IMG/VR virus record: IMGVR_UViG_3300015374_000054
Coordinates: 1 to 25,640 of that record
Length of the DNA: 25,640 bases
Origin: a virus
Direction: 5' to 3' (one strand)
Each line of letters starts with the position of its first letter. Position 1 is the first letter of the stretch. Positions 23,686-25,638 of the stretch are shown here, piece after piece. The notes under the pieces were generated by a model. It had not been told where the DNA came from, ran no database searches, and worked only from the letters and a program-made list of their open reading frames with translations. A program made the position numbers and the translations under genes.

Positions 23686-24255
23686 TCACGCGGCTTCCCT
23701 CTTTCCCGTAAACTCGTCATAGAGACGCTGTAGCTTTGAGTAAACTCGCGTAGCCAAACTCTTTCCGGGAAAAATGTCTTGGAAGAGTTCATACATAATA
23801 TCAGGTACGTACTCAGTCTTAGCTTTCTCGAAACGTGAGAGAGTACTATTATGTACGCAAAAAGCAGTACAGAAACCCATACGAGTTGTATAACCACAGC
23901 GATGCCTCCACCAAATAAAGGGATGTAAACCTTCCTCTGTATCTAATGGAGCTAATTCTAATTTGGCAGGAAGTAGTGGTTTTTTATTCTGGGCCCACTG
24001 ACGATGCTTCTCAATAAAGAGCTTGTAATGCGCGTTTAACTCTTCAATAGTGTACCCACGCATCTCTGATAAAGCGTAAGCAACAGCTGGAGGGATATTA
24101 CTATAAATACCTTGCTCGGCTCGCATAACAACTTGATCAGAGCATCGAGCTAAGTTAGCGAACTCTTTTAGCGTTAAGTTCTTATTAGTTCTTACCTGTC
24201 TAATAATAGACACGGGTTCCCCTACAGGGAGGGTGTCGTTGCCAGTAGTCCTCAT
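23686..24255 (-). CDS. Double helix-turn-helix (XRE-like) regulator
   Basis: A 189-residue protein with two Cro/CI-type helix-turn-helix units. The first, residues about 16-65, has L-T-L-K-E-F-A-N-L-A-R-C-S-D-Q-V-V-M-R-A-E-Q-G. The second, about 110-160, has T-R-M-G-F-C-T-A-F-C-V-H-N-S-T-L-S-R-F-E-K-A-K. The two are joined by a charged helix. No peptidase or ligand domain is visible, so it is not a LexA/CI-type self-cleaving repressor. It is the first gene of the leftward block and its start coincides with the predicted transcription start of its promoter (leaderless). Repeated DNA-binding units suit binding to the 15-base palindrome in that promoter, giving autoregulation; this is inference. 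No terminator separates it from terS. Confidence 0.82.
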   Translation of the reverse strand: MRTTGNDTLPVGEPVSIIRQVRTNKNLTLKEFANLARCSDQVVMRAEQGIYSNIPPAVAYALSEMRGYTIEELNAHYKLFIEKHRQWAQNKKPLLPAKLELAPLDTEEGLHPFIWWRHRCGYTTRMGFCTAFCVHNSTLSRFEKAKTEYVPDIMYELFQDIFPGKSLATRVYSKLQRLYDEFTGKREAA

Positions 24256-24261
24256 ACTTCA

Positions 24262-24290
24262 ATGGTACATCACCCTTGACAGTGTGTCAA
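24262..24290 (-). promoter_or_regulatory. Leftward promoter of the regulator (leaderless)
   Basis: The minus strand reads TTGACA (24285-24290), 17 bases, then TACCAT (24262-24267). Six bases separate the -10 from the ATG at 24255, so transcription is expected to begin at or next to that A. The -35 is one half of the palindrome at 24276-24290. Confidence 0.75.
24276..24290. promoter_or_regulatory. Shared palindromic operator carrying both -35 hexamers
   Basis: TTGACA-GTG-TGTCAA (15 bases, perfect six-base arms). Each arm is the consensus -35 of one of the two diverging promoters. A dimer bound here would cover both -35 elements. It is the most likely target of the divergently encoded regulators at 23686-24255 and 24311-24541. 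RNA polymerase could probably occupy only one of the two promoters at a time. Confidence 0.7.
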
Positions 24291-24304
24291 GAGCGTTGTA
24301 CGAT
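24276..24304 (+). promoter_or_regulatory. Rightward promoter of the ribbon-helix-helix gene (leaderless)
   Basis: The plus strand reads TTGACA (24276-24281), 17 bases, then TACGAT (24299-24304). Six bases separate the -10 from the ATG at 24311, so the mRNA should begin at the start codon. Geometry is identical to the leftward promoter. Confidence 0.75.
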
Positions 24305-24310
24305 GGGTTT

Positions 24311-24541
24311 ATGAGCAGCTTAAGCAACCCTACTCCGGTCGCAAAAGATGACCCGATTAGGGTTATAAACATTCAGAAGTACAGCAATAACAAGACCGTC
24401 GGTAGGTTTGTCATTAAGGGAGAGGACGCTTATTGGCTGGAAAGATTAGCTAGGGAGCAAGGCATGACTGTGGACGCGCTAGTTAAAATCTTTGTAATTG
24501 AAGGATTATATCGCCGGCGTTCGTACTTAAATCTTGGATAA
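24311..24541 (+). CDS. Ribbon-helix-helix-like small DNA-binding protein
   Basis: A 76-residue protein from ATG 24311. An upstream in-frame ATG (24233) is rejected because it lies before the promoter. Residues about 28-68 fit the Arc/MetJ/CopG fold: a strand T-V-G-R-F-V-I, a first helix E-D-A-Y-W-L-E-R-L-A-R-E-Q-G, a turn M-T-V, and a second helix D-A-L-V-K-I-F-V-I-E-G-L. The family binds DNA as dimers through the strand. It diverges from the helix-turn-helix regulator across the shared operator and so may act as the opposing repressor in a two-state switch, as Cro opposes CI in lambda (by analogy, not homology). It is the first rightward gene. Confidence 0.75.
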   Translation: MSSLSNPTPVAKDDPIRVINIQKYSNNKTVGRFVIKGEDAYWLERLAREQGMTVDALVKIFVIEGLYRRRSYLNLG

Positions 24542-24647
24542 AAAAATATTTCGAGAAATAGATTCCTTGATGCATTAATACTGGGAAATTTAAGGAAAAG
24601 GATGTTAAAATATCTGGGAGTAGCCTCGCTTCGCTCACCTTACCATA

Positions 24648-24678
24648 TTGAACTGTATTTTGCAACATGATATATAAT
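24648..24678 (+). promoter_or_regulatory. Candidate early promoter
   Basis: TTGAAC at 24648-24653 and a perfect TATAAT at 24673-24678 are 19 bases apart, longer than ideal. The TATAAT is the best -10 match in the region. A transcript from here would include the two palindromes and the SOS box in a leader of roughly 175 bases before 24859. Confidence 0.35.
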
Positions 24679-24693
24679 CCACGGTGTATTGAC

Positions 24694-24710
24694 ATACCCT
24701 AGGGGGGTAT
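24694..24710. promoter_or_regulatory. Inverted repeat, operator candidate
   Basis: ATACCC (24694-24699) and GGGTAT (24705-24710) are perfect inverted copies with a five-base spacer. The repeat begins on the last base of the TTGACA at 24689-24694, so a bound protein would block a promoter using that -35. The matching -10 is poor (TATCAG after 18 bases). Confidence 0.45.
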
Positions 24711-24727
24711 GGTATCAGCGCACGCAC

Positions 24728-24745
24728 ATCGAACGTGTGTTCGAT
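24728..24745. promoter_or_regulatory. LexA-binding (SOS) box
   Basis: ATCGAACGTGTGTTCGAT is an 18-base perfect palindrome containing TCGAAC-GTGT-GTTCGA (24729-24744), the form of the LexA operator of mycobacteria and of the related Gram-positive box (GAAC-N4-GTTC). A -10-like TAAAAT at 24751-24756 lies at a distance that would put the box across its -35/spacer, the usual position for LexA repression. It precedes the early gene at 24859 by 113 bases. The motif match is direct; control by the host repressor is a strong inference. Confidence 0.8.
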
Positions 24746-24858
24746 CAAATTAAAATCATAAAGTGTCCATATGTTGAGACCATCTATTGCTTGTGACACA
24801 CCGACCCCTCATACTTAAGGGGTAGGACAGTAATCCACACAGAGAGGTAACACACATC

Positions 24859-25638
24859 ATGACTGAGACAGTCACCGAACAGACGACCGAAGAGACAACC
24901 GAGTCAGCCGAAGAGGCTAAGCTCCCGAGTCTTGAAGAGGCTTTCGGTCCTAGTGCCGTTGCTGCAAAGGATCTTATTGCGCAGGCTAACGCTAAGATCG
25001 CCGTCCAGACTAAGCAAGCGCAGTGGCTTAAGGAAAATAGCCGCGACCCGCAAGAGTTGGTCGATGCTCTTAAGTCGGGCGAGACTGAGAACGAAGAGCT
25101 TAAGCCGCTTGTTGAGAAGCGCGAAAAGGCTGCACTTGCTTTGGCCCGGGTGGAAGAGCAACTATTTATTCAGGCCGAAAAGATCGCTAAGGCTCAGCTG
25201 GCCGAAGAGACTGACGAGGATGCAGTCGCTAAGCACACCGATGCTTACGAAAATGCAGTCAAGAGCGTGCGCGACATTAAGAAGGCGCTTGAGACTATTT
25301 TCACGGATAAGGTTTTCGCTTATCTCGACACGCCTCAGACTCTTAAGCGTAAGAGTTCCGGTACTCCCGGTTCTGGTCCTCCGCGTCTGCGCGGTATGAG
25401 TGTTAAGGTTGACGGCACTCTGGCGACAAAGAAAATGGGAGCCAAGCAAGAAGTCAAGAGCTCTTTTGGAGCGGCTGCCGAAAAGATCGGAAACATCTCG
25501 GTTAAGACTCTTGTCGAGGCTTATCAGAAGTCAGTCGGAACTACCGACTCAACTAAGTACCCCACCGATTGGCACCCTTTCGAGGTGACAGTCGATGACA
25601 AGACTTACAAGGTCGAGGCAAAGAAGGAAGCCGAGTAA
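24859..25638 (+). CDS. Acidic early protein of unknown function (259 residues)
   Basis: Residues 1-30 are Thr/Glu-rich (T-E-T-V-T-E-Q-T-T-E-E-T-T-E). Residues about 30-155 are long Ala/Glu/Lys helices, likely coiled coil (K-R-E-K-A-A-L-A-L-A-R-V-E-E-Q-L). About 160-175 is a basic, Gly/Pro-rich linker (K-R-K-S-S-G-T-P-G-S-G-P-P-R). The last 80 residues are a small globular part ending with a strand W-H-P-F-E-V-T-V-D and an acidic/basic tail. Codon use differs from the structural block: AAG, GCT/GCC, CTT, GAG and GTC dominate, as in strongly expressed genes, and GC is visibly higher. It lies downstream of the SOS box and GAGAGGT. No family was recognised; an abundant early, possibly DNA-linked, protein is the cautious reading. 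Confidence 0.78.
   Translation: MTETVTEQTTEETTESAEEAKLPSLEEAFGPSAVAAKDLIAQANAKIAVQTKQAQWLKENSRDPQELVDALKSGETENEELKPLVEKREKAALALARVEEQLFIQAEKIAKAQLAEETDEDAVAKHTDAYENAVKSVRDIKKALETIFTDKVFAYLDTPQTLKRKSSGTPGSGPPRLRGMSVKVDGTLATKKMGAKQEVKSSFGAAAEKIGNISVKTLVEAYQKSVGTTDSTKYPTDWHPFEVTVDDKTYKVEAKKEAE

Follow-up and report, generated by a model that had tools for sequence, protein, structure and literature searches.

Can 55 bases between two divergent genes hold two complete promoters, an operator and two translation starts, and does such an arrangement amount to a switch? The question is raised by positions 24253–24313 of a viral DNA stretch of 25,640 nucleotides (IMG/VR record IMGVR_UViG_3300015374_000054), referred to here, at its full length, as the window. 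A sequence-only reading had proposed a mirror-image pair of leaderless promoters built on one palindrome, forming a two-state switch between two small regulators.

Geometry of the divergent promoters

As read from the sequence, the two genes diverge from starts at 24255 (minus strand) and 24311 (plus strand), with 55 intergenic bases separating them. Its elements and the flanking genes, with the basis of each assignment, are as follows.

23686–24255, minus strand: left gene P0001, 189 aa, tandem-duplicated XRE/HTH (Pfam HTH_3, hhalign, model, gene context)
24256–24261, minus strand: six-base gap from left −10 to ATG, predicted leaderless start (sequence; the most frequent gap length among family members)
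24262–24267, minus strand: left −10, TACCAT (sequence; leaderless signature according to PMC3160421)
24285–24290, minus strand: left −35, TTGACA (sequence; same element in many family members)
24275–24291, no strand: 17-bp dyad with both −35 elements, candidate operator (sequence; dyad of contigs L127/L128 in the same frame)
24276–24281, plus strand: right −35, TTGACA (sequence)
24299–24304, plus strand: right −10, TACGAT (sequence; TAGTAT at the same 17-base spacing in L127/L128)
24305–24310, plus strand: six-base gap from right −10 to ATG, predicted leaderless start, in the window's clade only (sequence)
24311–24541, plus strand: right gene P0002, 76 aa, putative ribbon-helix-helix, first rightward gene (L127/L128 homologue, model)

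On the plus strand, TTGACA (24276–24281) is followed by a 17-base spacer, TACGAT (24299–24304), six bases and the ATG at 24311–24313, while on the minus strand TTGACA (24290–24285) is followed by an equally long 17-base spacer, TACCAT (24267–24262), six bases and the ATG at 24255–24253. The consensus −35 on each strand, the spacers, the TANNNT −10 elements, the gaps and the start codons had all been described in this way, and the description is exact. The two −10 elements are 31 bp apart, and on both the P0001 and the P0002 sides the first T of TANNNT lies 12 bp upstream of the ATG. A TANNNT motif some 12 bp upstream of the start codon is accepted as the mark of leaderless bacterial genes, a class whose share in Actinobacteria is above 20% (PMC3160421).

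Two details of that description require correction. The 15-base palindrome, reading TTGACACACTGTCAA on the minus strand and TTGACAGTGTGTCAA on the plus strand, is present with its two TTGACA elements, but the dyad is really 17 bp long (CTTGACA-GTG-TGTCAAG, 24275–24291) and has an asymmetric centre. The palindrome was also said to be shared as both −35 elements; the opposed hexamers do lie adjacent and back to back, but they are 3 bp (GTG) apart and consist of distinct bases.

When the window was scanned for TTGACA (at most 1 mismatch), a spacer of 16–18 bases, TANNNT, a gap of 5–7 bases and ATG, exactly two matches were obtained, namely the left and right sites at the dyad. In 60 dinucleotide-preserving shuffles one-sided sites occurred at a mean of 0.6 and two-sided sites numbered 0. 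The two-sided promoter arrangement is non-random, and the presence of two opposed sigma70-type promoters with back-to-back −35 elements, each with leaderless-gene geometry, is supported.

The flanking genes and their genomic setting

The left product was correctly said to contain two HTH units. Profile comparison shows the N- and C-terminal halves of P0001 to be homologous (hhalign E 1.3e-10), which makes the protein a tandem duplication and in effect a single-chain pseudo-dimer, and the model, derived from an alignment of 40 family members, displays two four-helix XRE cores (pLDDT 91). Residues 18–73 match Pfam HTH_3 with E 1.6e-6 (28.5 bits against a gathering score of 23). Full-length structural matches are confined to uncharacterised proteins of the phages Shocker and GurgleFerb, and a PDB fold search gave single XRE domains only. 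The gene heads the leftward late operon, and in 58 of about 85 loci a homologue is found upstream of the terminase. DNA and protein searches of phage and plasmid collections gave no match for P0001 or P0002, and an alignment search of 84,980 bacterial and archaeal genomes gave no relative of P0001. Its Shine-Dalgarno (SD) duplex energy is −6.3 kcal/mol, with the complementarity too far upstream, other window genes ranging from −3.3 to −10.0 kcal/mol. In contig L129 (966–1648) the HTH gene is apparently split by a frameshift between the first HTH and the remainder, which appears to reflect assembly error or decay.

The right product had been likened to a ribbon-helix-helix protein. Its model has the expected beta-alpha-alpha order at low confidence (pLDDT 63) and weakly matches Arc, CopG and AmrZ, but it is too poor for a fold verdict; P0002 has no Pfam match at E 1, and a relative matches Antitox_RHH weakly (E 0.043). 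The ribbon-helix-helix assignment is plausible but weak. The protein is 100% identical in a contig that is itself 93% identical to the window, and an alignment search of IMG/VR with P0002 brought up only the clades of five already known contigs.

Leftward from the locus, the window encodes both terminase subunits, small and large, together with a portal of P22 type. Its terminase shares 37% identity with that of Arthrobacter phage Jasmine and 33–37% with those of Cellulosimicrobium DS1 and Microbacterium Shocker, which makes an actinobacterial host very probable. The DNA belongs to a podovirus-like actinophage, a distant relative of Jasmine. In the orientation of P0002, longer relatives carry an SNF2 helicase, RecA-like AAA and DnaB-like ATPases, a PD-(D/E)XK nuclease and a family A DNA polymerase (PolA). 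With late genes to the left and replication genes to the right, the region would lie between late and early blocks, and it is from this gene context that we infer the timing of the two sides.

The gene setting also bears on the lifestyle of the phage. No integrase is present among the inspected ORFs of these incomplete contigs, and terminase relatives in bacterial genomes are restricted to a phage-sized contig of 46,429 bp and a MAG contig. The former (L225, NZ_BNBR01000011.1), assigned to Streptomyces griseosporeus, is of whole-phage size, carries both the family terminase and the HTH gene, and probably represents a phage that is extrachromosomal or a contaminant rather than a prophage. Jasmine, a podovirus, has no integrase and comes from a collection whose phages are described as mainly lytic (PMC5513430). 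The window phage is probably lytic as well, and with no integrase among the inspected ORFs and no integrated member of the family seen, a divergent early/late promoter pair is a better fit than a switch governing lysogeny.

A lambda-like lysis/lysogeny switch, in which the left HTH protein would be the immunity repressor and the right product its Cro-like antagonist, is accordingly a very improbable account of the locus. It would suit two divergent small DNA-binding proteins (the right one weakly supported) with overlapping promoters, as well as a leaderless repressor like those of lambda (cI) and PY54 (PMC4488713). Against this, in relatives throughout the family the HTH gene stands at the head of a structural operon, and the window contains a single perfect dyad with no second exact operator copy; these points stand beside the lack of an integrase among the inspected ORFs, the HTH protein without a relative in the 84,980 bacterial and archaeal genomes and the terminase relatives on just the two contigs named above. 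The two-state switch of the sequence-only reading, taken as one of lysogeny type, is unlikely, as neither an integrase among the inspected ORFs nor a chromosomal relative of the left gene was found.

Further features lie to the right of P0002. Upstream of a rightward ORF at 24859, the window carries TCGAACGTGTGTTCGA at 24729–24744, which agrees perfectly with the LexA/SOS box of actinobacteria, tCGAAC-N4-GNNCGa (PMC9380542); the core arms are kept and the centre is changed in L002, a contig of the window's clade. The box suggests a host DNA-damage input to rightward transcription. Before it lies a non-coding block, 24541–24683, whose 143 bp are identical in the 93% identical relative, the following 178 bp differing by 29%. 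A CTGGG...TCGCTNCGCTC motif near this block recurs at a similar place in L127 and L129, and a second promoter region (24681–24858) may drive the rightward operon. A sub-threshold Rfam match to GcvB on the minus strand was treated as chance.

Conservation and rarity of the arrangement

Within the window's own clade (L002 and L003, 93–97% identical) the intergenic region is unchanged, the 93% identical contig having 0 of 55 differences there as against 6% in each flanking gene. More informative are L127/L128, in which the left and right flanking proteins share 36% and 48% identity, respectively, with those of the window. Their intergenic region of 71 bp contains a 19-bp dyad, ACTTGACTC-C-GAGTCAAGT, in the TTGAC-N5-GTCAA frame of the window, with 9-bp arms and a symmetric centre of different sequence. 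Both arms have T in place of A as the last −35 base (TTGACA to TTGACT), the two 17-base spacers are kept, the −10 elements read CATACT (left) and TAGTAT (right), and the left gene retains its six-base gap. Their right gene, in contrast, has a leader with AAGGAGGT and an SD duplex of −17.7 kcal/mol, as against −3.6 kcal/mol for P0002 in the window. In L130 the left TACACT-6-ATG is kept, the right gene is SD-led and weakly similar, and the intergenic region has no TTGAC dyad. A TTGAC-based dyad is likewise absent at the HTH promoters of most family members, Jasmine included, for which reason a family-wide operator was rejected.

The dyad is thus carried by two lineages only, in one of which the right gene is SD-led. 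The sequence-only reading had looked to related phages for the palindrome, spacing and six-base gaps; L127/L128 have the dyad frame and the 17-base spacers but not the right six-base gap, and the palindrome, whose loss in close relatives was to tell against the switch, persists in L127/L128 and disappears further out. Mirror symmetry as a functional requirement is not supported, given the leadered right gene of L127/L128 and L130, which has no TTGAC dyad. As predicted promoters, the back-to-back −35 elements are conserved in two lineages, while within the family the putative mirror leaderlessness is restricted to the window's near-identical clade.

An alternative is that the right side is not leaderless at all, P0002 being served by another start or a longer transcript and the spacing between −10 and ATG being coincidental. 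The SD-led right genes of L127/L128 and L130 point that way, as do an in-frame GTG and upstream starts available to P0002. The reading is nevertheless unlikely, given that no apparently usable SD precedes 24311 in the window, that the right gap is exactly the six bases usual in the family, and that similarity to the relative's protein begins at the ATG at 24311, where MSSLSNP in the window product faces MSQLSNP in the relative.

The left side is far more widespread. Among 44 nonredundant family members, a pattern of TTGACA-like hexamer, 15–19 bases, TANNNT, 5–7 bases and ATG occurs at the HTH gene in 19, compared with 68 of 5115 ATGs (1.3%) in the same loci. Of the ORFs measuring 130 aa or more in these loci, 19 bear the leaderless signature, and 17 of them are the HTH gene. 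Six is the most frequent gap between −10 and ATG among the members. The HTH genes of Jasmine and GurgleFerb have the leaderless geometry and that of Shocker has TACCCT six bases before its ATG with a weaker −35; several other members have an SD-led HTH gene. The predicted leaderless promoter on the left is a trait of the family, conserved far beyond L127/L128, and the apparent recurrent leaderlessness of the regulator heading the late operon in actinobacterial podovirus-like phages is a firmer proposition than the mirror switch. Upstream of the HTH gene, L199, L184, L159, L158, L167 and L153 encode small divergent proteins that resemble RHH or other short DNA-binding proteins and are unrelated in sequence, as if this neighbour had frequently been exchanged for another of like type.

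Outside the family, IMG/VR was searched for the exact mirror geometry with any centre. Six contigs were returned, two of them the window's own clade. A possible independent case is L237 (13227–13287), an unrelated viral contig in which the geometry separates a gene for a 70-aa Cro-like HTH protein from a 264-aa ORF; three other contigs, having only ORFs of 9–20 aa on one side, were rejected as chance or non-genic. The exact mirror was absent from 396 Actinomycetota genomes. A palindrome with one leaderless side is common in IMG/VR (at least 119 matches), and among the palindrome matches listed only the window's clade has both sides leaderless.

Mechanism and comparison with known systems

The explanation we favour, and regard as fairly probable, is that the 55-bp region serves as a divergent late/early control point with mutually exclusive promoters and a dyad that is probably bound by a regulator. 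It draws on the computed geometry, its non-randomness, conservation and gene context, with transcription starts, exclusion, binding and timing deduced from these. Two promoters of sigma70/SigA type would stand back to back, directing transcription of the leftward late operon or of the rightward genes. Each −35 would fall within the spacer of the other promoter, so that polymerase could probably occupy only one promoter at a time. The left transcript would begin at or beside the ATG of the tandem-HTH gene and, in the window's clade, the right transcript at or beside that of the RHH-like gene. One of the neighbouring proteins would probably bind the dyad too and bias the choice of direction, the RHH-like product being the better candidate because the dyad is seen only where its gene is present and is missing from other HTH promoters of the family.

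The operator is challenged by a rival explanation, in which the locus consists of promoters only and regulation proceeds by polymerase competition or by factors elsewhere. Opposed consensus −35 elements automatically produce TTGACA-N3-TGTCAA, so symmetry alone is no proof of an operator, and since a C before TTGACA is common in family promoters, the seventh dyad pair adds weak evidence. Moreover, some family members have the same left promoter yet no dyad, and competition alone is established at E. coli bidirectional promoters (PMC12825309). What promoter function alone does not predict is that the L127/L128 arms have shifted together to TTGACT, off the −35 consensus, and that their symmetry extends to 9-bp arms and a symmetric centre. 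The symmetric A-to-T change and the longer arms, a single comparison, argue for an operator, and an account by promoters alone is possible without being probable. A more elaborate toggle, in which the tandem XRE pseudo-dimer and the RHH protein compete for the 17–19 bp dyad as an early/late decision, the operator coinciding with both −35 elements and both mRNAs being leaderless, is improbable.

Should the promoters be mutually exclusive, as in the favoured explanation, a 57-bp fragment would hold a complete choice of direction and offer a clean test bed for polymerase competition across a shared −35 region. More broadly, actinobacterial podovirus-like phages form a large, little-characterised group that appears to retain leaderless initiation at one specific regulator gene, the first of the late operon, and the start of this gene alternates between leaderless and SD-led in sister lineages. 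The cause of the frequent leaderless mRNAs of phage regulators becomes testable in cultured phages, e.g., Jasmine and GurgleFerb.

Among known systems, lambda PRM/PR offers close divergent promoters with an operator between them and a leaderless cI, combined with three operators, non-symmetric promoters, a leadered cro and control of lysogeny. The window, by comparison, has a single dyad and belongs to a probably lytic phage. The suggestion that no known phage is comparable holds for the exact geometry, of which no published description was found within the limited literature searched, but not for the general design, as cI and cro of PY54 are divergent and both of their mRNAs are leaderless by 5′-RACE (PMC4488713). 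PY54 resembles the window in its divergent repressor genes, leaderless mRNAs (predicted here) and operator in the intergenic region (a candidate here). It differs in being a temperate plasmid prophage of an enterobacterium, in that no mirror-image dyad of back-to-back −35 elements has been described, and in that Cro and CI are both HTH proteins and the HTH gene does not head a late operon.

Overlapping divergent core promoters that couple both sides, with an HTH regulator (the C protein), are found in the CR/M systems EcoRV and CfrBI (PMC5333194), which are not of phage origin, overlap in another geometry and, in the case of EcoRV, have a C transcript that is not leaderless. Bidirectional promoters of E. 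coli exhibit pseudo-symmetric DNA, opposed polymerase binding and competition (PMC12825309); they share a −10, whereas in the window the −35 elements are back to back and the −10 elements far apart. In Jasmine/GurgleFerb and Shocker a homologous tandem-HTH gene with leaderless geometry heads the late operon; the neighbouring genes are different, the HTH gene is annotated as hypothetical only, and the promoter of Jasmine is without the TTGAC dyad. Set beside these systems, the region in the window is a compact, local variation on known divergent phage promoter and switch designs.
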